Shown here: positions 295 through 58,431 of the stretch, in pieces
Layout: the number at the start of each line of letters is the position of its first letter
Position numbering within the stretch: position 1 is the first letter of the stretch
Translations under genes and position numbers: made by a program
Notes under the pieces: model-generated
Database searches by the model: none
What the model was told of the DNA's origin: nothing
The model's input: only the letters and a program-made list of their open reading frames with translations
Assembly: GCA_017429475.1 (NCBI GenBank)
Contig: JAFROX010000002.1
Location: 1 to 64,000, forward strand
DNA length: 64,000 bases
Direction of reading: 5' to 3'
Source of the DNA: Bacteroidales bacterium
GTDB taxonomy: Bacteria > Bacteroidota > Bacteroidia > Bacteroidales > UBA932

Positions 295-1185
295 CTAGAG
301 CTCACGAATCCAGATATTTCTGAAGCTTACAGGCTCGCTGGGATCTCCGTGGGCCTGGAGGAGGAGTTTATAAGTGGTATTCTGGTTAACCGGCGGAATA
401 CCGATATAGGAAGTAGTACCGATGATTTCCACATCGTTCAATACGACTACACCATTATATATAAGGGTAACTCTCGGTTTGGTCCTGTACTGGCCGAGTT
501 TGTTGAAAGTAGGAGCAGTGAAGATGAGGTCATAATACTGCCACTCACCATTGGGACGTGAAGGGTTCACCAGAGGAATGGTCTGTTTGTAAACACTGCC
601 GACCATACCGTTCACATATGTAGGGTTATTGTAACCGTCGAGAATCTGAATCTCATAACCGGTGTTGCCACCAATCTTGAGACCTGTGTTGCCACGGCTC
701 TGGCCGCTGCCCTGTATTCCCTCGGGAACACGCCACTCGAGGTGGATCTGGAAATCACCGAACTCACGTTTAGTGATGATGTCACCTGCGCTCTTGTTTA
801 CTGTGAGCAGACCGTCAGCCACTGTCCACTGAGCTTCTCCGCCGCCGCGCGCTGACTCCCATTCATTAAGGTTTGTACCGTCGAAAAGGATGATAGCATC
901 TGAGGGAGCGCCCCAATTCTGGTTCTTTGCGTCGAAAGAGCCGGGAGTAACTGTCGGGGGAACCGGATCGTAGAATTCGGTCATTTCCGGAGTCATTCTG
1001 GGAGCTTCCTGGCCGTTAGGCTGCTGGGTACCACCCACCCTGCTGGGAGGAGTACGAACGCCTTGCTGCTGAGGTGCGCCGGCAGGTCTGCCTTGAGGAG
1101 GTCCTTGCGGGGGCTGTGCGAGAGCCGATCCGCTTAGAAGCATAATAAGTGCTGCAGAAGCAGCAAGAAGGATATTCTTTTTCAT
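295..1185 (-). CDS. Secreted DUF1080 (3-keto-disaccharide hydrolase-like) protein
   Basis: 296-residue exported protein. Start chosen at the ATG at 1185, which gives a classic signal peptide (MKKNILLAASA...ALAQ, cleavage near residue 24); an upstream in-frame start would put 36 residues before it. Residues about 24-60 are rich in Pro, Gln and Gly; the remainder is the DUF1080 fold, a LamG-like beta-sandwich, seen in the stretches IILFDGTNLNEW, FQIHLEWRVPEG and the C-terminal SFRNIWIREL. Family members act on sugars (some are 3-keto-glycoside hydrolases) or serve as binding modules, so the substrate is not known. The gene has its own terminator and a promoter shared back to back with nhaA. Confidence 0.85.
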   Translation of the reverse strand: MKKNILLAASAALIMLLSGSALAQPPQGPPQGRPAGAPQQQGVRTPPSRVGGTQQPNGQEAPRMTPEMTEFYDPVPPTVTPGSFDAKNQNWGAPSDAIILFDGTNLNEWESARGGGEAQWTVADGLLTVNKSAGDIITKREFGDFQIHLEWRVPEGIQGSGQSRGNTGLKIGGNTGYEIQILDGYNNPTYVNGMVGSVYKQTIPLVNPSRPNGEWQYYDLIFTAPTFNKLGQYRTKPRVTLIYNGVVVLNDVEIIGTTSYIGIPPVNQNTTYKLLLQAHGDPSEPVSFRNIWIREL

Positions 1186-1215
1186 TTTACTAAATAAATT
1201 GGTTGATAAACGATT

Positions 1216-1252
1216 TTTGCAAATATAATATTTTTTCATCGTATTTTTGCAA
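1216..1252. promoter_or_regulatory. Overlapping divergent promoters for DUF1080 gene and nhaA
   Basis: The 88-bp gap between the two divergent genes holds TATTTTTG on the plus strand (1242-1249, for nhaA) and TATATTTG on the minus strand (1227-1220, for the DUF1080 gene). The plus-strand TTTG (1216-1219) touches the minus -7 box, and a direct repeat ATTTTTGCAA occurs at 1213-1222 and 1243-1252. Spacing from TTTG to the plus -7 box is 22 bp, longer than ideal. Confidence 0.55.
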
Positions 1253-1273
1253 TAGATTTTACAAAAGCTTTTT

Positions 1274-2608
1274 ATGAAAACCAAAGCCCTCAACGCCGGC
1301 AGATTCTACACACGCAACGCATTCCAGCAGTTCACCAAAAGCGGATCCATCGGAGGATTCATCCTGTTCTTCTGTGCAATTATCGCTGTTGTCGTTGCCA
1401 ATGTACCCAGCCTTCAGCACCTGCTCAGGATCTGGGACGTCGACATGGGCATTGAGATAGGCAAGTTTTCCATCAAGATGGACTTCATCCAATGGATCAA
1501 CGACGGCTTGATGGCTATCTTCTTCCTGAATGTAGGACTTGAAATAAAGCACGAAATACTGGCTGGCGAGCTGTCGCAGCCCAAGAAAGCGATGCTGCCT
1601 ATTTTCGCGGCGCTGGGAGGAATGATCGTTCCCGCCCTGATCTACACTTTCTTCAACGCCGGCACGGCCAGCGCCAATGGATGGGGCATTCCGATGGCTA
1701 CCGACATCGCTTTTGCGATGGGTGTGCTCGCACTGCTCGGCAAAAGCTGTCCCATCGGACTCAAGGTCTTTCTGACAGCCCTGGCAATCGTGGATGACCT
1801 CGGCAGTATCCTTGTTCTGGCAATTTTCTACCCTACACACGCCATTCACGGGATATTCCTCGTCTATGCGGCAATTGTAATGCTGATACTTTTGGCCTTG
1901 AACTATCTGAATGCCCGCAATCCTATGCTGTACATCATCCCGGGACTGTTCCTGTGGTATTTCATATTCAAGTCCGGCATTCACGCAACAATAGCCGGAG
2001 TACTGCTTGCCATAACCATACCGGCGAAGACCCGCATCAACGAAGTCCGGTTCTACACTAACGTCCAGCACCTGCTGAACAAGTTCAAGGCAGCCAGCCA
2101 CGGCCAGCTTGAGGCCGAAACCACCCCCGAACAGCTCGACCTGCTTCATCAGATCAACAACCGCGTTGATGACATCAGCCCTATCACCGACCGTTTCCAG
2201 GTTGCCCTCAACACTCCAGTAAACTACATTATCATGCCGTTGTTCGCACTCGCAAATGCAGGGGTGGCCTTCAGCGGTGAGATTTTCGCAGGCGGCTATT
2301 TCCACATCGCGCTCGGAATCTTCTTCGGCCTGCTGCTGGGCAAGCCTATCGGCATCTTCCTCTTCAGCTGGCTGTCAATCAAGCTCAAGCTCGCTCAGCT
2401 GCCTTCTAAATCCACTTACAAGCAGCTGTTCGCCATCGGCATGGTCGGCAGCATCGGTTTCACAATGTCTCTATTCATCGACAACCTGGCATTCACCGAT
2501 CCCGAGATGATTGCGGTGGGCAAGGCTGCAGTGCTGGTGACTTCGGCCCTCGCCGTCATCCTCGGCTTCCTGGCCGTCAAGCTAACCGCCAATAAAAAAG
2601 AAGATTAA
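1274..2608 (+). CDS. nhaA: Na+/H+ antiporter NhaA
   Basis: 444-residue inner-membrane antiporter that expels Na+ in exchange for H+ and controls internal pH. Typical NhaA signatures are present: INDGLMAIFFLNVGLEIKHE near the N terminus, GWGIPMATDIAFAMGVLALLG and LTALAIVDDLGSILVLAIFY, which carry the paired Asp residues of the ion site, and GKPIGIFLFSW plus GSIGFTMSLFI near the end. About twelve hydrophobic segments can be traced, with a hydrophilic insert around residues 265-300. Length is slightly above that of E. coli NhaA because of this insert. The gene stands alone; a ribosomal operon promoter follows. Na+ handling fits a cell that also carries Rnf. Confidence 0.96.
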   Translation: MKTKALNAGRFYTRNAFQQFTKSGSIGGFILFFCAIIAVVVANVPSLQHLLRIWDVDMGIEIGKFSIKMDFIQWINDGLMAIFFLNVGLEIKHEILAGELSQPKKAMLPIFAALGGMIVPALIYTFFNAGTASANGWGIPMATDIAFAMGVLALLGKSCPIGLKVFLTALAIVDDLGSILVLAIFYPTHAIHGIFLVYAAIVMLILLALNYLNARNPMLYIIPGLFLWYFIFKSGIHATIAGVLLAITIPAKTRINEVRFYTNVQHLLNKFKAASHGQLEAETTPEQLDLLHQINNRVDDISPITDRFQVALNTPVNYIIMPLFALANAGVAFSGEIFAGGYFHIALGIFFGLLLGKPIGIFLFSWLSIKLKLAQLPSKSTYKQLFAIGMVGSIGFTMSLFIDNLAFTDPEMIAVGKAAVLVTSALAVILGFLAVKLTANKKED

Positions 2609-2622
2609 TTTCTTCAGCGCGT

Positions 2623-2652
2623 TTTGTATTTTCAAAAAAAGGCGTATTTTTG
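2623..2652 (+). promoter_or_regulatory. Promoter of rpsP-rimM
   Basis: TTTG at 2623-2626, an 18-bp spacer and TATTTTTG at 2645-2652 fit the Bacteroidota promoter consensus. Transcription would start around 2658, leaving a leader of about 55 nt before rpsP. Confidence 0.7.
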
Positions 2653-2712
2653 CAGACCTTTTCTCGAGAAGATAAGGAAGTTAACCTCATTATTAACTTT
2701 AAATGACACATT

Positions 2713-3285
2713 ATGGCTGTTAAAATTCGCCTTGCACGCCACGGAAAAAAGAACTACGCTTTTTATCATATCGTGGTAACTGACGTCCGCTCACCTCGTG
2801 ACGGCCGTTTTATCGAGCAGATCGGTAGCTACAATCCCAACACCAACCCTGCAACCATCGTTCTCAACAATGACAGAGCTCTTTACTGGCTCAATTGCGG
2901 TGCCCAGCCCTCTCCCACTACACGTCGTATCCTTTCTTACGAAGGTGTACTCCTCAAGAAACATCTTGAAGGCGGTGTGAAGAAGGGTGCTTTCTCAGAA
3001 GCTGAGGCCCAGAAGAGATGGGACGCTTGGAAGGCTGAGAGAGATGCCAAGATCGCGAACAAGATCAGCGCTGTGAAGAACGCCGGCATCGAGGCTGCCA
3101 AAGCTGCCAAAGCTGCAGAAGCCAAAGTAAATGCTGAGCGTGCTGAAGCTATTGCCAAGAAGAAAGCTGAAGAAGCTGCCGCCAAGGCTGCTGCCGAAGC
3201 TGAGGCAAAAGCCGCCGCTGAAGCTGAAGCCGCTGCTGAAGCTCCCGCTGAAGAAGCTGCTGAAGAAGCTCCCGCTGAAGCTTAA
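2713..3285 (+). CDS. rpsP: 30S ribosomal protein S16 with long Ala-rich tail
   Basis: 190 residues. The first 80 or so are the S16 fold ([20 protein letters not shown], then [15 protein letters not shown]), a small-subunit assembly protein. S16 of E. coli is only 82 residues; here residues about 110-190 form an Ala/Glu/Lys-rich extension ending in repeated AEEA units, predicted helical or disordered and acidic at the end. Such tails are common in this phylum. rimM follows after 4 bp, so the pair is an operon, as in many bacteria where S16 and its 30S maturation factor are linked. Confidence 0.97.
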
Positions 3286-3289
3286 TTTC

Positions 3290-3760
3290 ATGCGAATTCT
3301 CAAATCCTACGGAACCGAAGGCGGTGTCATAGTAAGCACTGCATCCATTCCTGAGGATTTCGACATCACAGAACCGGTATTCATCGATTTCGATGAATTG
3401 CCGGTTCCTTTTTTTATAGAAGAATTCAAGGCCCACGGCAGCAAGAAGGCCTTCCTGAAACTCGAAGACATCGACAGTCTGCAGGATGCCGAGGAACTGG
3501 TGGGCAAGGACATTTTCTTCAGTCTGGAAGAAGATGATGATTTTGCGGGTTTCACCGGGCTGGAAGTATTCGACGCCATCACTTCCAAACAGGTCGGCAT
3601 CGTCAGGGAGTATGTCGACATTCCCTCCAACCCGTGCCTGGAGGTAGAAATTGCCTCATCCGGCGAAACGGTTCTCATACCCTGCCACGATGAACTCATC
3701 GACAGGGTGGACGAAAAGAAAGGCCGTATTTTCCTAAGGATTCCCGAGGGACTTCTCTAG
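3290..3760 (+). CDS. rimM: Ribosome maturation factor RimM
   Basis: 156-residue protein that helps 16S rRNA 3'-domain processing and S19/S13 assembly. The start at 3290 (MRILKSYGTEGGV) follows the rpsP stop by 4 bp; starts further upstream in this frame lie inside rpsP and are not credible. The N-terminal RimM barrel covers roughly residues 1-80 (FKAHGSKKAFLKLEDIDSLQDAEELVGKDIF) and the C-terminal PRC-like barrel contains LEVFDAITSKQVGIVREYVDIPSNPCLEV and ILIPCHDELI-like strands. Its TAG stop lies in the palindrome CTAG, whose other strand is the stop of def. Confidence 0.93.
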   Translation: MRILKSYGTEGGVIVSTASIPEDFDITEPVFIDFDELPVPFFIEEFKAHGSKKAFLKLEDIDSLQDAEELVGKDIFFSLEEDDDFAGFTGLEVFDAITSKQVGIVREYVDIPSNPCLEVEIASSGETVLIPCHDELIDRVDEKKGRIFLRIPEGLL

Positions 3761-4320
3761 TTCTCCACTTTAGCTTTATAGCGGGTATTGACGCAACCCT
3801 TTGATATGCCGCGGAGCTTGCCTGATATAAGCTTCTTCCGGATGGGCGATGCGTGGTCTGTGAACACGATACCGTCGAGATGGTCCATTTCGTGCTGCAC
3901 CATACGGGAGGCGAAATCGTCGAAGGTTTCTTCCTTGAGCTCGAAATTCTCGTCGTAATATCTCACCGTGATGACCTTGGGCCTGATGACATCTGCGTCA
4001 ACGTCGGGAATGCTCAGACAGCCTTCGTTGTATTCGGAAGTCTCCTCGCTCTCGCTCACGATTTCGGGATTGATCATCTTGCGGTAGAAATCCTTGAGCT
4101 CGGGATATTTCTCGGTAAGGTCCGAACCGTCGACAATAAGCAAGCGCTTGCTCACTCCCACCTGGGGAGCCGCAATGCCGCAGCCGTCTGCCTTCTTCAT
4201 GGTTTCGTGCATATTGTTGAGCAGTTCGGTCAGGGCGGCGCGGTCGTCCTTGCTAAGGTCGACAGGGGCCGCAACCTCACGGAGGACCTTTGATCCATAG
4301 AGATATATAGGTAGTATCAT
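3757..4320 (-). CDS. def: Peptide deformylase
   Basis: 187-residue Fe2+/Zn2+ hydrolase that removes the formyl group from nascent protein N termini. All three signature motifs are visible: GCGIAAPQVG, EGCLSIP and QHEMDHLDG (the HExxH-type metal site plus the metal-binding Cys). Length is normal. It follows ruvX by 3 bp on the same strand and shares its stop palindrome with convergent rimM. The formylating partner (Fmt) is elsewhere in this window as half of a fusion gene at 52970. Confidence 0.96.
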   Translation of the reverse strand: MILPIYLYGSKVLREVAAPVDLSKDDRAALTELLNNMHETMKKADGCGIAAPQVGVSKRLLIVDGSDLTEKYPELKDFYRKMINPEIVSESEETSEYNEGCLSIPDVDADVIRPKVITVRYYDENFELKEETFDDFASRMVQHEMDHLDGIVFTDHASPIRKKLISGKLRGISKGCVNTRYKAKVEN

Positions 4321-4323
4321 ATC

Positions 4324-4758
4324 CTAATCTGTTTTTCTGTCCATAAAAGTCTGAAGGATCAGCGCAGCGCTCACTTTGTCGACTGCAGCCTTGTCCCTGC
4401 GTGCCATCTTCTTGACACCGCCGTCAATAAGCGAACGGTGTGCCAAAACCGATGTGAAGCGTTCATCTTCCAGAGTCACAGGGATATCCGGAAAGTTCTT
4501 GCCGAGCAATTTGAGAAAGACATCCACATCGGCCGCAGCCTCGCTTGGCTTGTTGTCCATATTCATCGGATAGCCCACGACGAAGCGTACAATGGTCTCA
4601 TCCAGACTGAGTTTTTTAAGATAATCTATTATCTTTGCCGTTTGAACAGTTTCCACCGGAGAGGCAAACATCATCAGGGGATCACTCATTGCAACCCCTG
4701 TGCGTTTTTTTCCATAGTCTATGCCGACAAGCCTGTTCACAGCCTGCAAAGTTAACAT
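4324..4758 (-). CDS. ruvX: Putative pre-16S rRNA nuclease / Holliday junction resolvase YqgF
   Basis: RNase H-like nuclease needed for 16S 5' maturation in E. coli. Motifs: VGIDYGKKRTGVAMSDP at the N terminus (first acidic residue), FVVGYPMNMDN in the middle and LEDERFTSVLAHRSL, ending with DKAAVDKVSAALILQTFM, which has the last catalytic Asp. The ATG at 4758 gives 144 residues. The GTG at 4740 (VNRLVGIDYG) fits the usual family N terminus better, and a -7 box TAACTTTG lies at 4754-4747 inside the longer reading frame, so the shorter 138-residue form is a real alternative. The gene is upstream of def and back to back with an M23 peptidase gene. Confidence 0.92.
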   Translation of the reverse strand: MLTLQAVNRLVGIDYGKKRTGVAMSDPLMMFASPVETVQTAKIIDYLKKLSLDETIVRFVVGYPMNMDNKPSEAAADVDVFLKLLGKNFPDIPVTLEDERFTSVLAHRSLIDGGVKKMARRDKAAVDKVSAALILQTFMDRKTD

Positions 4759-50346: not shown

Positions 50347-52962
50347 ATGACTTCTAAAGAAATCCGCCAGACCTTTCTGGACTTTTTTGCTTCGAAAGGC
50401 CACACCATAGTTCCTTCAGCGCCGATGGTAGTGAAGAACGACCCCACCCTGATGTTCACCAATGCAGGAATGAACCAGTTCAAGGACTGGTTCCTCGGCA
50501 ACGAGCCCGCCAAGTACCAGCGCGTAGCCGACTCGCAGAAATGCCTCCGCGTGAGCGGCAAGCACAACGACCTGGAAGAAGTGGGCCACGACACCTATCA
50601 CCACACCATGTTCGAGATGCTCGGCAACTGGAGCTTCGGCGACTATTTCAAGAAAGAAGCCATCCAGTGGGGCTGGGAACTGCTCACCGACGTTTTCAAG
50701 CTCGACAAGAACCGTCTCTATGCCACAGTGTTCGAAGGCAGCGAGGCTGACGGAGTCCCGATGGACGAAGAGGCCAGGCGCGAGTGGCTCAAATATCTTC
50801 CCGAGAGCCACATTATCCTCGGCAACAAGCACGACAACTTCTGGGAGATGGGAGACACTGGTCCCTGCGGCCCTTGCAGCGAGATCCACATCGACCTCCG
50901 CAGCGACGAAGAGCGCGCAAAGGTTGACGGCGTCACTCTCGTAAACCAGGGACATCATCTGGTAATCGAAATCTGGAACCTCGTCTTCATGCAGTTCAAC
51001 CGCAAGGCCAACGGTTCCCTGGAACCACTGCCGGCAAAGCACGTCGACACCGGAATGGGTTTCGAACGCCTCTGTATGGCATTGCAGGGCAAGCAGAGCA
51101 ACTACGACACTGACGTATTCACCGATATGATCGACGCCATCTCCGCTCTCTGCGGCAAGAAATACGAGCCTGAGACCGAAGTAGGCGTAGCAATGAGGGT
51201 CATCGCCGACCACATCCGCGCCATCAGCTTCTCTATTGCCGACGGTCAGTTGCCTTCAAACGTAAAGGCAGGATATGTGATCCGCCGCATCCTCCGCAGG
51301 GCCGTACGCTACGGCTACACCTTCCTCGGCTTCAAGGAGCCGTTCCTGTGCAGGCTTGTGCCGAACCTCGTAGCCCAGATGGGCGATGCATTCCCCGAAC
51401 TGCGCAAGCAGAACGAACTGATAGTACGCGTCATCAAGGAAGAGGAGGAAGCTTTCCTCCGCACCCTCGACAAAGGAATAAGGCTGATGGACAACATAAT
51501 GGCCAAGGCTGCCGACACAAAGAAAATCAGCGGCGTGGATGCCTTCACACTCTACGACACCTACGGATTCCCCATCGACCTGAGCGAACTGATCGCCCGT
51601 GAGAACGGCTACACCATCGACCTTGCAGAGTTCAACGTAGAGCTCGAGAAGCAGAAGCAGCGCGCCCGCAACGCCACTGCCATCGAAGCCGGCGACTGGC
51701 TCAGCGTAGGTCCCGACGCCGTCACAGAGTTCGTGGGATACGACACTATGACCGCAGACGTCAACATCGTCCGCTACCGCACCGTCAAGGCCAAGAACAA
51801 AGAGCAGATCCAGCTCGTGTTCGACCGCACTCCTTTCTACGGAGAGATGGGTGGCGAGGTCGGCGATTCAGGATGGATCAGCGCCGGCGACGAAAAGATT
51901 GCTATCATTAACACCATAAAGGAGAACGGCCTGCCCATCCATATCGCAGAGCGCATGCCTTCCGACCTTCAGGCCACATTCAAGGCAGAGGTCGACGCAG
52001 AGCGCCGCATATGCATCCAGAACAACCACTCTGCAACCCACCTGCTGCACGCAGCTCTCCGCAAGGTGCTCGGAACACACGTGGAGCAGAAAGGTTCTTT
52101 CGTGGGTCCCGATTCTTTCCGCTTCGACTTCTCACACTACGAGAAGATGTCTCACGAGCAGATCCTCGAAGTAGAGCGACTCGTGAACAAGATGATACGT
52201 GCAAACGCACAGCTCCAGGAATATCGCGACGTTCCCATCGAAGAAGCCCGCAATATGGGTGCGATGGCGCTCTTCGGAGAGAAATACGGCAACAGCGTGC
52301 GCGTCATCAAGTTCGGTGACTCGATAGAACTCTGCGGCGGCTGCCACGCTCCCGCCACCGGTGCCATCGGATTCTTCCGCATCATCAGCGAAAGCGCCAT
52401 CGCAGCCGGCGTACGCCGTATCGAAGCCACGACAGGCTTCAGGGCTGAAATAATGGTGGACAACATGGAAGAGACTATCGGCGCCATCCGCGAAATGCTC
52501 AACAACGCTCCGGATATCCTGACTGCCATACGCAAGACCGTAGATTCCAACGAATCATACCGCAAGGCTATGGAAGCAGTGCAGCAGGAGCGCGCCGTCA
52601 ATCTCAAGAACAGCGTGAAGGCCACCGCCCAGGCAGCTAACGGCATCACATTGATGACGCTGCGCAAGTGCATTAGCATGGAACTTGCAAGGAACGTGGC
52701 ATTCCTGCTCCACTCGGAGACCACAGCCACTGCCTTCATCGCAGCCTTCGAGAGCGAAGACAGCAAACCCTGCCTGGTGCTTATGTACACCGACGACCTC
52801 GTCGCTCAGGGCAAGGATGCCGGCAAGGACATCCGCGAAGCTGCCAAACTGATACAGGGCGGCGGTGGCGGTCAGAAGTTCCTGGCCACAGCCGGAGGTA
52901 AGAACCTGGATGGTCTGGCCGAAGCGGCAGAAGTACTTGTGAAACTGGCAACAGGCAAATAA
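50347..52962 (+). CDS. alaS: Alanyl-tRNA synthetase
   Basis: 871 residues from the ATG at 50347 ([19 protein letters not shown]), which matches the family start; the frame upstream is not coding. Aminoacylation core: [49 protein letters not shown] and [22 protein letters not shown]. The editing domain has [17 protein letters not shown] (His-x3-His) and [13 protein letters not shown] (metal Cys/His). The C-terminal DHHA1 domain ends in [17 protein letters not shown]. It is followed after 7 bp by the LptF/G-Fmt fusion gene. Confidence 0.98.
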
Positions 52963-52969
52963 TCCTATC

Positions 52970-55408
52970 TTGAAGAGACTCGACCAATACCTGCTCAAAT
53001 CCTTTATGGGCCCATTCGCACTGGTGTTCTTCATCGTGCTGTTCATCCTTGTGATGCAATTCCTGTGGGTCTACATCGACGAGCTGGTGGGCAAAGGCCT
53101 GGGTTTTTCCGTCATAGCTGAATTTATGGGCTGGGGGGCCTGCACCATCCTGCCTATGGTGCTTCCCCTGTCGACGCTGCTGGCCTCCATAATGACTATG
53201 GGCGGCCTCGGAGAAAACAACGAGTTGCTGGCGATGAAAGCCGCCGGCATATCCCTCGGCAGGACGATGCTTCCGCTGATGATAGTTTCGCTGCTCATCA
53301 CGGTCGGAGCCTTCTTCATCTCGAACGAACTCATTCCCGTAGCATACGAACATATCTACGCCCTGCGCGACGACATCGGCCGCACCAAGGATGAGATCAA
53401 GATACCGGACGGAGTCTTCTACGACGGAATCGAGGGCTACACACTGAGGGTAGAGAGCCAGGACGAGGAAACGGGAATGATGCACAACCTGATGGTCTAC
53501 GACCACACATCCAATGTCGGAAACAACTCCCTCATCCTCGCAGACTCTGGCAAGATCCAGATCACCGAAGACAAGAAATATCTTATATTCGACATGTACA
53601 ACGGCCGTTCATACGACGAAACCAACCGTATGGGCTACCGCGACACCACTCTCGACCAGGATATAATCAGTTTCAAGGAGCAGCGCATCTACATCTCGCT
53701 GGCCAACTACACGTTCACACGCGACGAAAACGGAGACCGTTTCAGCGATGAGATAATGTCGCAGGACCTGCACGACCTGCATCACGACCGAGACTCCATC
53801 CTCAATGATTACGATGTGAACTACGAGTCCCTCCTGCGCAAATTCGTATACAACCTGAATCTGGAATACTATCCCCAGATCGACACATCCCTTCAGAAAG
53901 AGCCTCTGCCGCTCTTCGACCTCAAGGGTTTGAGAGCCAATATTGACTCCACCTTATCTTCCGATCAGAAAAGGTCCGTACTCATCAATGCGAAGAACGA
54001 ATTTGAGAATGGCGGCCTGGGAGCCATCGACACCTATGAAAGGGACACTTTCAGATTCCTGAGCCCTACGAGGAAGATGCTGGTGGAGATGTGCCGGAAG
54101 TTCACCCTTGCACTGGCCTGCCTGCTGTTCTTCTTCATCGGAGCACCGCTCGGAGCCATCATCCGCAAGGGCGGTCTCGGCACGCCTGTTATCATTTCCA
54201 TATTGTTCTTCGTCTTCTACTGGGTGATCGACACCACCGGAGTAAAGCTCGCAAGGGACGGCAATATGGATGAAATCGTGGGATCGGTCATATCTTCGGC
54301 CGTCCTGCTGCCCATAGGAGCGTTCCTCACCTGGCAGGCTACGACCGACTCTCCTCTGTTCAATGCAGATTCGTGGAAGGCATTCCTGAGGAAATTATGG
54401 GCTCCTGTCGGAGCTTTCCTGAGGCGGGCTTCGAACTTCCTCAGGCGCAAGAGGGGCCGCATCGACATCGTCTATATGGGTACTCCTGAATTTGCAGTTG
54501 CCCCGCTCAAGGCTCTTATGGAGCAGACGGACTACAATATCGCCGCAGTGGTGACAGTGCCTGACAAGGCTTCGGGCCGCGGACTGCAGATGCACGAAAG
54601 CGCCGTCAAGAAGTTCGCCACGGAGCGCGGCATTCCAGTGCTTCAGCCCGAAAAGCTCAAGGATCCCGATTTCCTCGCCCAGTTGAAATCATTCGATCCT
54701 GACCTGTTCATAGTGGTTGCCTTCCGTATGCTTCCGAAGGAAGTATGGAGCATGCCCCGCCTAGGCACATTCAACCTGCACGCATCCATCTTGCCTCAAT
54801 ACCGCGGTGCCGCGCCTATCAACTGGGCCATCATCAACGGCGAGAAGCAGACCGGCGTCACTACGTTTATGATTGACGAGAAGATCGACACCGGAGGCAT
54901 ACTCTATAACGACTACTGCCCTATCGAAATCTATGACAACGCAGGCACCCTGCACGACAAACTCGCGGAGAAAGGTTCCGAACTTGTAGTCAAGACGGCC
55001 AGGGCTCTCGTCAAGAAGAGAGTCACCCCTTCACCGCAGGTGGCATTCAGCGAGCTCAAGCCCGCGCCCAAGATCACACGCGAAACCTGTCAGATCGACC
55101 TTGACGACGAAGCATCTGCCATCTGCCTGCTCGTCCGCGGTCTCTCTCCCTATCCCGGAGCGCACCTCAACCTTGTGTCTGAAGACGGCACTGTCACCGA
55201 CGTGAAAGTCTATGACGCCTTCGTGCCTGACAGGGAAGAGCAGCTGGCCAAAGGACAGATAGCCACCGACGGCAAGACCTACCTTTCTGTTGGCTGTGCA
55301 GCGGGCAATCTGCGTATAATGGACATCCAGCTCGCAGGCAAGAAGCGCCTCAAGATAGAAGAATTCCTGAAGGGATTCAGGGATGCATCCAAATATCACT
55401 TCGAATGA
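52970..55408 (+). CDS. LptF/LptG-type permease fused to methionyl-tRNA formyltransferase
   Basis: 812 residues in one frame. It begins with a TTG codon (KRLDQYLLKSFMGPF, the usual family start). Residues 1-480 are an LptF/G lipopolysaccharide export permease: N-terminal membrane helices (about 12-35, 60-80, 100-122), a periplasmic beta domain, then three helices (about 375-460). After an Arg-rich amphipathic linker, residues 497-812 are Fmt: RIDIVYMGTPEFAVAPLKAL, the catalytic set N602, H604 and D640 (FNLHASILPQYRGAAPINW, IDTGGI) and the C-terminal domain from about 700. The spacing N to D of 38 equals that of E. coli Fmt. No ATG, GTG or TTG occurs in the junction before the first Fmt strand, so separate translation is unlikely. 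The last membrane helix places Fmt in the cytoplasm. The next gene overlaps by 4 bp. Confidence 0.9.
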   Translation: MKRLDQYLLKSFMGPFALVFFIVLFILVMQFLWVYIDELVGKGLGFSVIAEFMGWGACTILPMVLPLSTLLASIMTMGGLGENNELLAMKAAGISLGRTMLPLMIVSLLITVGAFFISNELIPVAYEHIYALRDDIGRTKDEIKIPDGVFYDGIEGYTLRVESQDEETGMMHNLMVYDHTSNVGNNSLILADSGKIQITEDKKYLIFDMYNGRSYDETNRMGYRDTTLDQDIISFKEQRIYISLANYTFTRDENGDRFSDEIMSQDLHDLHHDRDSILNDYDVNYESLLRKFVYNLNLEYYPQIDTSLQKEPLPLFDLKGLRANIDSTLSSDQKRSVLINAKNEFENGGLGAIDTYERDTFRFLSPTRKMLVEMCRKFTLALACLLFFFIGAPLGAIIRKGGLGTPVIISILFFVFYWVIDTTGVKLARDGNMDEIVGSVISSAVLLPIGAFLTWQATTDSPLFNADSWKAFLRKLWAPVGAFLRRASNFLRRKRGRIDIVYMGTPEFAVAPLKALMEQTDYNIAAVVTVPDKASGRGLQMHESAVKKFATERGIPVLQPEKLKDPDFLAQLKSFDPDLFIVVAFRMLPKEVWSMPRLGTFNLHASILPQYRGAAPINWAIINGEKQTGVTTFMIDEKIDTGGILYNDYCPIEIYDNAGTLHDKLAEKGSELVVKTARALVKKRVTPSPQVAFSELKPAPKITRETCQIDLDDEASAICLLVRGLSPYPGAHLNLVSEDGTVTDVKVYDAFVPDREEQLAKGQIATDGKTYLSVGCAAGNLRIMDIQLAGKKRLKIEEFLKGFRDASKYHFE

Positions 55409-56037
55409 CGACCGTTATCCTTGCGCACGGAGAGTTCCCCTCATCCGACAGGACTCTCGGCTTCCTGAAACACGCTGACCGCATCATCTGCTGCGACGGC
55501 GCCGCCGAAAGGCTGCTGGCAGAAGGCATAGTGCCGGACCTCATCGTCGGCGATATGGATTCTCTCCCGTCAGAACTTCAGCAGCGCTATGCCGGCATTG
55601 TCCGCAAGATCAGCGAGCAGGAAACCAATGACCTCACCAAGGCATTCAAGGCTGCCCTGGAGCCGATGCCCGACACCATCCACATCCTAGGTGCCACCGG
55701 CAGGCGCGAAGACCACACGATGGCAAACGTGTCGCTGCTGGCCGATTATGCCGAGATGCTCTCTGGCAGCGGATGCGACATAGATATGATAACGGAAAGC
55801 GGCACCTTCCGCGCCTTCTGCGCAAAGGATGCCCGCTTCAGCTGCCCCCTCGGGGTGGAAATCTCCATATTCGCCTTCGACAACACCCTTCGCATGAGCT
55901 GCGAGGGCCTGTTCTACAAAACGGACAGAGTCACCTTCGACACGTTATGGAAGGCGACTCTGAACCACAGTACTGCAGAGGAATTCTCACTTCACCTCAA
56001 CCATCCGGCCAAGGTAGTGGTGTTCATCTGTAGCTGA
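55405..56037 (+). CDS. Thiamine pyrophosphokinase
   Basis: 210 residues. It transfers pyrophosphate from ATP to thiamine, giving TPP, the cofactor needed by PFOR in this window. Motifs: IICCDGAAERLL, DLIVGDMDSLP and QETNDLTKAFKAAL in the catalytic half, and GATGRREDHTMANVSLL. The C-terminal beta domain (about 130-210) binds thiamine. Its ATG overlaps the stop of the fusion gene (ATGA), and its TGA stop abuts that of the convergent transporter gene in the palindrome TGATCA. Confidence 0.94.
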   Translation: MTTVILAHGEFPSSDRTLGFLKHADRIICCDGAAERLLAEGIVPDLIVGDMDSLPSELQQRYAGIVRKISEQETNDLTKAFKAALEPMPDTIHILGATGRREDHTMANVSLLADYAEMLSGSGCDIDMITESGTFRAFCAKDARFSCPLGVEISIFAFDNTLRMSCEGLFYKTDRVTFDTLWKATLNHSTAEEFSLHLNHPAKVVVFICS

Positions 56038-57333: not shown

Positions 57334-58431
57334 TTACTTCGGAGCCAGACGATAGAGGTAGATCACTATTATCGTGAACACCACATTAGGCAGCCAGATA
57401 GCCACGAACGGAGGCATCAGGCCGGTGCGGACGAACATTTCGCTGAAGCGCTGGAACAGGATGTAGGAGAAGCACAGGCCCACTCCGATACCGATGTTGA
57501 GGCCAAGCCCTCCCCTGCGCTTGCGGCTGGACAGAGCAAGGCCCATAATTGTCAGGATGAATGCCGAGAAAGGCAGCGCAGTGCGGGAATACTTCTCGAT
57601 GAGAGAATAGTCCACCGACTTGTCTCCCCTCAATTTCTGAGTCTCGATGAGCTGGTCCAGTTCCTTTACGGTAAGGGTCTGCATCACGTTGCTTCGGCGC
57701 AGGAAATCCTCGAGCGTCAGGTCGATGACGGTATCGCGCGCCTTGCCGGCAGTCACATATTCGTTGCCGTACTGGTCGTAATTGCGGATGAAATAGTTGT
57801 GAAGCTTCCAGCCGTTGGTAGTGGTGTCCCACGCGGCCGTCTCGGCGGAGAGTTTCGACGTTATCTTGTTGTCCTCGATGGTTTCGAGTGAGAAACGGTA
57901 GGCAGTGCTGTTGAAGGTGCTGAAGCTCTCCACATAGACGAACTGCCCGGGTTCTATCTGGTAATGCACGTCACGGGTCGCTCCCAGCGTCGATTTCGCC
58001 TTGATGTACTTGTTCTCGAAATCGAGCCGGACCTTGTTGGCCGGAGGAATCACATAAAGGTTCAGGATGAGCGAGAATATGGCCACGAACGCCGCCGAAA
58101 TCAGATACGGCACCAGCAGGCGGTTGAAGCCTATGCCGTTCGACAGCATAGCGATGATCTCGGAATTCTGCGCCAACTTGGACGTGAAGAAGATGACCGT
58201 GATGAACACGAACATCGGACTGTACATATTGATAATGAAGGGGATGAAGTTCGCGAAATAGTCGAACACAATCTCCTTCAGCGGCACCTGGTTGTCGACG
58301 AAGTGGTTGATCTTCTCGCTGATGTCGAACACCACGATGATGACGATGACGATAAGCAGCGTCAGGAAGTAAGTCCCGATGAACTTCTTGATGATGTACC
58401 AGTCTATTATTTTGATCTTGGGACTTCTCAT
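57334..58431 (-). CDS. LptF/LptG family permease (unfused copy)
   Basis: 365 residues. Six membrane helices, three on each side of a periplasmic beta-jellyroll domain (about residues 135-265). The start KIIDWYIIKKFIGTYFLTLLIVIVIIVVFDISEKI and the end KRRGGLGLNIGIGVGLCFSYILFQRFSEMF are family-typical. Together with the permease half of the fusion at 52970 it could form the LptF/LptG pair that lifts lipopolysaccharide out of the inner membrane with LptB. Its ATG overlaps the tgt stop (TAATG). Confidence 0.93.
   Translation of the reverse strand: MRSPKIKIIDWYIIKKFIGTYFLTLLIVIVIIVVFDISEKINHFVDNQVPLKEIVFDYFANFIPFIINMYSPMFVFITVIFFTSKLAQNSEIIAMLSNGIGFNRLLVPYLISAAFVAIFSLILNLYVIPPANKVRLDFENKYIKAKSTLGATRDVHYQIEPGQFVYVESFSTFNSTAYRFSLETIEDNKITSKLSAETAAWDTTTNGWKLHNYFIRNYDQYGNEYVTAGKARDTVIDLTLEDFLRRSNVMQTLTVKELDQLIETQKLRGDKSVDYSLIEKYSRTALPFSAFILTIMGLALSSRKRRGGLGLNIGIGVGLCFSYILFQRFSEMFVRTGLMPPFVAIWLPNVVFTIIVIYLYRLAPK

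Follow-up and report, generated by a model that had tools for sequence, protein, structure and literature searches.

Methionyl-tRNA formyltransferase (Fmt) is usually viewed as a free cytosolic enzyme, which has to meet every initiator tRNA. One known composite formyltransferase is ArnA, a protein of lipopolysaccharide (LPS) modification that joins a formyltransferase, whose substrate is a nucleotide sugar, to a second enzyme. Here we describe a gene of a Bacteroidales bacterium (assembly GCA_017429475.1) in which an LptF-type permease continues in one frame into Fmt; it lies in positions 1 to 64,000 of the forward strand of contig JAFROX010000002.1, a stretch of 64,000 nucleotides (nt) referred to as the window. 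The permease half resembles the LptF and LptG permeases of the LptB2FG complex (6mit, 8frl, 9doh) in its match to PF03739 along its length, its six transmembrane (TM) helices and an lptG-type gene close by, and differs from them in that its C-terminal tail runs on into an enzyme rather than ending. Unlike Fmt as represented by TIGR00460 and the Escherichia coli structures 1fmt and 2fmt, the Fmt of the window has no start of its own, its N-terminus continuing from the membrane protein, whereas in separate-gene relatives fmt has a frame of its own. ArnA is alike in being a two-part protein linked to LPS whose formyltransferase domain shares this fold, but its formyltransferase is N-terminal, while that of the window is C-terminal and is Fmt proper. 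Both component families are well known; what is new is their combination, the sole-copy status of the Fmt and the seeming repeated origin. In the open-licence PubMed Central (PMC) literature that was searched we found no description of an lptF-fmt fusion, which is weak evidence of absence; an original prediction, made from the sequence, likewise knew of no description.

A single open reading frame joins an LptF-type permease to Fmt

The region 52970-55408 on the forward strand is a single open frame of 812 amino acids (aa), running from a TTG at 52970 to a TGA at 55406-55408, with the following parts:

52970..54349, + strand: residues 1-460, the LptF-type half, with six TM helices and a large domain between TM3 and TM4
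Residues 2-41, 46-82, 96-138, 331-397, 404-430 and 435-459: predicted TM helices of the LptF-type half
54350..54460, + strand: linker (residues 461-497), basic (10 K/R versus 1 D/E), without ATG, GTG or TTG
54461..55405, + strand: Fmt half (residues 498-812), formyltransferase N domain (N602, H604, D640) and C-terminal domain
55406..55408, + strand: TGA stop of the fusion, overlapped by the start codon of the gene that follows (ATG at 55405)

The uninterrupted permease-Fmt frame of the original prediction is borne out, being a single frame whose domains score over their Pfam cut-offs and which recurs in other genomes. On the Fmt half, Formyl_trans_N (501-675) and Formyl_trans_C (PF02911, 701-804) each matched above cut-off, and the NCBIfam fmt equivalog TIGR00460 scored 232 bits against a cut-off of 201.5. 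In the alignment, N602, H604 and D640 correspond to N, H and D of E. coli Fmt (1fmt chain positions 108, 110 and 146), with equal spacing, as had been predicted, and we take their equivalents to be the catalytic residues of Fmt. These three residues and a loop Arg were retained in all 108 fused and all 47 separate rows of our alignment. Furthermore, the fusion is the sole fmt above cut-off in its own genome (80.3% complete). The other formyltransferase matches there, weighed as a possible second fmt, were PurU (389.2 bits, above cut-off) and a PurN-like gene (128.8 bits, below the cut-off of 150.1), and no second fmt was found in the family sample described below either. Judging from these sequence features, the Fmt half most likely formylates initiator Met-tRNA.

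The permease half matched LptF_LptG (PF03739) over residues 6-455 (223.6 bits, cut-off 27.9). Since six predicted TM helices precede it, the C-terminus of this half should lie on the same side as its N-terminus, which from the solved LptB2FG is presumably the cytoplasm; of the predicted cytoplasmic C-terminus, the sidedness therefore stands, and the identity of the compartment is taken from that complex. The large domain between TM3 and TM4 would then be periplasmic, and the half is predicted to be a permease subunit that assembles with LptG and LptB for LPS export by the usual chemistry. In a structure model of the fusion (mean predicted local distance difference test, pLDDT, 82), residues 496-812 matched Fmt structures, including the tRNA complex 2fmt, and residues 1-460 matched LptF/LptG. 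A helix is predicted at 466-491 of the linker with low confidence, and the difference in linker amphipathy between 71 fused rows (median moment z 1.8) and 31 separate ones (1.0), after 53 rows without an anchor were dropped, was too weak to build on.

The fusion recurs in a group of gut Bacteroidales

In the window's genus, represented by its own genome and 24 sampled mates, 18 of 25 genomes carried the full-length fusion, at 57-94% identity to that of the window in the other 17; among the remainder, five were cut at a contig end (G003, G012, G013, G015, G020) and in one (G024) the frame breaks late in Fmt. Among named genomes there were 550 relatives, of which the best 80 were kept; these included Candidatus Cryptobacteroides and Candidatus Cacconaster, the latter placed in family UBA932 in PMC8957277, which makes UBA932 the presumable family of the window as well. 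In a family sample of 119 genomes the junction was read through in one frame in 39, with both halves present in 37 and a contig end cutting two; this count includes G099, which the search had flagged with a stop and which proved on inspection to be one open frame. At E<=1e-25 each of the 37 two-halved genomes, 31 of them at least 90% complete, gave a single match. Altogether 190 loci, chosen partly for similarity, were examined, of which 133 were fused, 52 separate and five without fmt in the available stretch, and the single-frame junctions among them amount to 114 distinct ones, that of the window included.

Outside the family the picture was different. In an order sample of 295 genomes, three of four family members were fused and none of the 291 others scored like a fusion: 284 of these had a match at E<=1e-100 and seven had none, the best being 1.2e-161 except for G038, whose match at 1.2e-237 is a stop-split pair. 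In a phylum sample of 138 genomes E<=1e-140 was reached by the window's own genome alone, although a fusion that has diverged could escape this threshold. The fusion is thus confirmed as genuine in a group of gut Bacteroidales, and is wider than first described. Of the three findings that, by the original prediction, were to count against the fusion, a stop or indel at the junction is contradicted by the other assemblies that read through, and no second fmt was found; relatives with separate genes and a stop do exist, but they belong to other genera and families and seem to represent an earlier state there.

A membrane-tethered Fmt is the simplest reading

The simplest reading, which we consider probable, is a working, membrane-tethered protein that carries the cell's sole Fmt. 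Neighbouring lptF and fmt genes would have been joined once the reading of the lptF tail ran on, with no stop in between, in the frame of fmt. The product would be an LptF-type subunit of the inner membrane with a basic cytoplasmic tail that bears the only methionyl-tRNA formyltransferase of the cell. Each half would keep its usual chemistry, the permease acting with LptG in LPS export and Fmt on initiator Met-tRNA; tethering would hold Fmt to the membrane in a one-to-one ratio with LptF, without any need for regulatory cross-talk. Accumulation of the uncut full-length protein, activity of both halves and location at the membrane are what we infer from the above. The presence of a deformylase, which removes the formyl group, was counted in favour of a working Fmt:

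3835..4314, - strand: peptide deformylase (PF01327, 171.2 bits), the sole match in the genome

Purifying selection acts on all three segments, with median ratios of nonsynonymous to synonymous substitution rates (dN/dS) of 0.131 for LptF, 0.20 for the linker and 0.047 for Fmt across 28 pairs from the eight closest genomes (the linker being usable in 27), at dS medians of 0.7-0.9. If the simplest reading is true, these gut bacteria live with their sole Fmt bound to a membrane transporter subunit, a single protein serves both LPS export and translation initiation, and nature has provided a test of how much formylation capacity is needed and whether its location matters.

Several observations weigh against this reading. 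The dS values just given are near saturation. In the structure model the linker is the least certain part (pLDDT 52-60, with 489-493 below 50), and a predicted template modelling score (pTM) of 0.50 leaves the relative placing of the two halves open. The permease half scored below the curated cut-offs of both specific models (LptF, TIGR04407, 170.2 bits against 230; LptG, 100.2 against 240), as did the LptF-type proteins of loci L192 and L209; because these and the partner gene all miss the curated cut-offs, the name LptF is provisional and means nearer to LptF than to LptG. In the genus of the window, G007 (73% complete) has neither half, and the frame break of G024 (locus L022, near 3750-3890, towards the end of the Fmt domain) is either an error or a real truncation. 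By their record titles, the named fused genomes are metagenome-assembled genomes (MAGs) or uncultured organisms, and one of them, the SUG854 MAG, holds two different fusions on two contigs (L082 and L107, alike in 660 of 809 residues), pointing to either a mixed bin or two copies. Finally, linker cutting or near-cognate starts may be routes to free Fmt, and canonical starts inside some fusions, given below, point the same way.

One product or two

In the window, the 38 codons ahead of the first Fmt strand contain no ATG, GTG or TTG, as had been predicted, and the first canonical start is the ATG of YMGTP, at the end of that strand. Likewise, 13 of 20 distinct fusions from the window's genus have none of the three codons in the 20 codons ahead of the Fmt domain and one has an ATG, for which the naive chance is 0.47, a figure to be discounted in that it treats codon use as even and takes no account of relatedness between the rows. 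Across most of this genus, canonical starts yield nothing but the fusion.

The Cryptobacteroides-type fusions, a group defined by the tree described below, differ: an in-frame ATG stands within those 20 codons in 43 of 62, and in 28 of the 62 it is exactly seven codons ahead of the Fmt domain (for example MSIFRKTRIVYMGTP). Many separate fmt genes have their start codon three to eight codons ahead of the domain. The ATG at -7 (in L082, L105 and L107, among others) is possibly a former fmt start retained as an internal start.

Because an ATG is so frequent there, the Cryptobacteroides-type group may produce free Fmt alongside the fusion. A broader explanation would be that the fusion is made throughout, but that internal initiation or cutting of the basic linker also yields free Fmt, the soluble form doing most of the work. 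The positions of the internal ATG and of the separate fmt starts favour it, as does the low confidence of the linker in the model; on the other hand, most fusions of the window's genus lack any canonical start ahead of the domain, and the ATG at -7 is not kept throughout the Cryptobacteroides-type group, so that we regard this explanation as unlikely, though the strongest of the competitors to a tethered sole Fmt. The original statement that Fmt must be made with the membrane protein accordingly stands for part of the group, and for canonical starts only, and fails for the Cryptobacteroides-type fusions. Taken as a whole, the original interpretation was right in its real fusion, in the only fmt detected and in the lack of a canonical internal start in the window, and does not generalize to the group.

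Separate, touching and fused states

The basal family member L192 has the order lptF, ribBA, fmt, and ribBA adjoins lptF also in L210; it does not stand between lptF and fmt where those touch:

L192, 1220-2452, - strand: ribBA, above the NCBIfam cut-off
L210, 2879-4132, + strand: ribBA, above the NCBIfam cut-off, directly beside an ordinary 480-aa LptF, in another Bacteroidales family

In L192 the LptF (2445-4328, - strand) is 627 aa long, and TM6 is followed by a tail of some 150 residues that the fused forms do not have. Two long-LptF candidates for a fusion elsewhere were rejected: L210, with its ordinary LptF beside ribBA, and L209 (another Bacteroidales family), a 976-aa LptF-type protein (587-3517, - strand) whose extension had no NCBIfam match at 1e-10. 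By eye, this long C-terminal extension contains further hydrophobic helices.

Among the 51 separate-gene family loci fetched, the Fmt domain lay -10 to 100 nt from the lptF stop in 49, and about 1.2 kb from lptF in L192 and L193. Some pairs overlap (L121, L127 and L131, for example), four of the 51 share one frame (L158, L160-L162), and in L028, of another family, lptF and fmt are adjacent and in the same frame with a TAG and a TAA between them. Another 25 separate-gene family genomes, of genera g25, g35, g36, g40 and g29 (mostly the first three), were left unfetched; in those inspected that had both halves (G067, G076, G085, G105) each half was on a contig of its own, so that in these genera the two genes are not as a rule adjacent. 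The path that the relatives outline would lead from lptF-ribBA-fmt through touching genes with stops to the fused state, and once the genes touch, a small change in the lptF tail could suffice for fusion.

A tree was built from LptF and Fmt without the linker, for 155 of the 185 two-halved loci; 25 fused rows (19 duplicates of another locus and six partial) and five separate rows with partial genes were dropped. The state changed at least four times on this fast tree and six times on a likelihood tree of 62 hand-picked rows, and well-supported branches forced three changes in each. In clade tests named after the tree had been seen, a single clade for all fused rows was rejected (p=3.9e-5; p=0.001 without L163), and one for the main fused group of six genera was not (p=0.625). 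Since outgroups have separate genes and the single clade is rejected, there would have been at least three gains, or a smaller number followed by splitting, and by these trees the fusion seems to have arisen more than once; the g39 origin comes from a single MAG, G096. Two functionally unrelated housekeeping genes would thus have been joined, apparently repeatedly, through mere neighbourhood.

Coupling, artefact and sugar formylation

The repeated origin could instead reflect selection for a link, with all initiator-tRNA formylation sitting at the inner membrane on a subunit of the LPS exporter, and initiation and outer-membrane supply depending on one protein and limiting each other, an idea that we hold to be doubtful. 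Still less probable, in our view, is a specific form of coupling, in which, through the tether, LPS export is tuned by formyl-folate or by the state of initiation, or formylation is brought to the site of membrane-protein synthesis. Besides the rejection of a single clade, retention speaks for it, as the 155-row tree, many rows of which were picked by similarity, has two groups (34 and 65 rows) that consist entirely of fusions, with no separated pair among them; retention is weak evidence, however, because splitting back takes both a new stop and a new start. Adjacency or overlap in many relatives can by itself explain repeated joining, and the link between translation start and outer-membrane biogenesis put forward in the original prediction is not directly supported by these data. 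The model, at its pTM, gives no placing of the halves against each other.

That the fusion is an artefact of assembly or binning, as the MAG or uncultured status of the named genomes might suggest, we give next to no credence, since many distinct junctions read through in one frame, and do so with linker lengths that vary between lineages while the frame is kept. Just as negligible is an ArnA-like LPS-sugar formyltransferase that would make the fusion an LPS-modification device: a formyltransferase domain in a protein linked to LPS recalls ArnA, but the ArnA model scored 145.8 bits, far below its cut-off of 777, while the fmt model passed its own, the genome and the family sample yielded no other fmt, and the separate gene of L192 is also fmt (256.7 bits). 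The sugar formyltransferase identity was rejected on these scores.

Neighbouring genes and start codon

The fusion gene sits within a tight same-strand gene run, as alaS ends 7 nt upstream of it and the start of a thiamine diphosphokinase gene overlaps its stop (ATGA). PF03739 matched only twice in the genome, in the fusion and in an lptG-type gene downstream:

50347..52962, + strand: alaS, alanyl-tRNA synthetase (TIGR00344, 872.7 bits, match given from 50350; start picked by eye)
55405..56037, + strand: thiamine diphosphokinase gene (TIGR01378, 128.9 bits, cut-off 76.4)
57334..58431, - strand: lptG-type gene, presumed partner permease (PF03739; LptG model 173.4 bits, cut-off 240)

The TTG start, which had also been predicted, is common to the window and its seven closest relatives (L005-L011). 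At start positions chosen by script, the other 107 fused rows have ATG in 85, TTG in 10 (L005-L011 included), GTG in nine and another codon in three. The TTG at 52970 is possibly a weak start that reduces the output of both halves.
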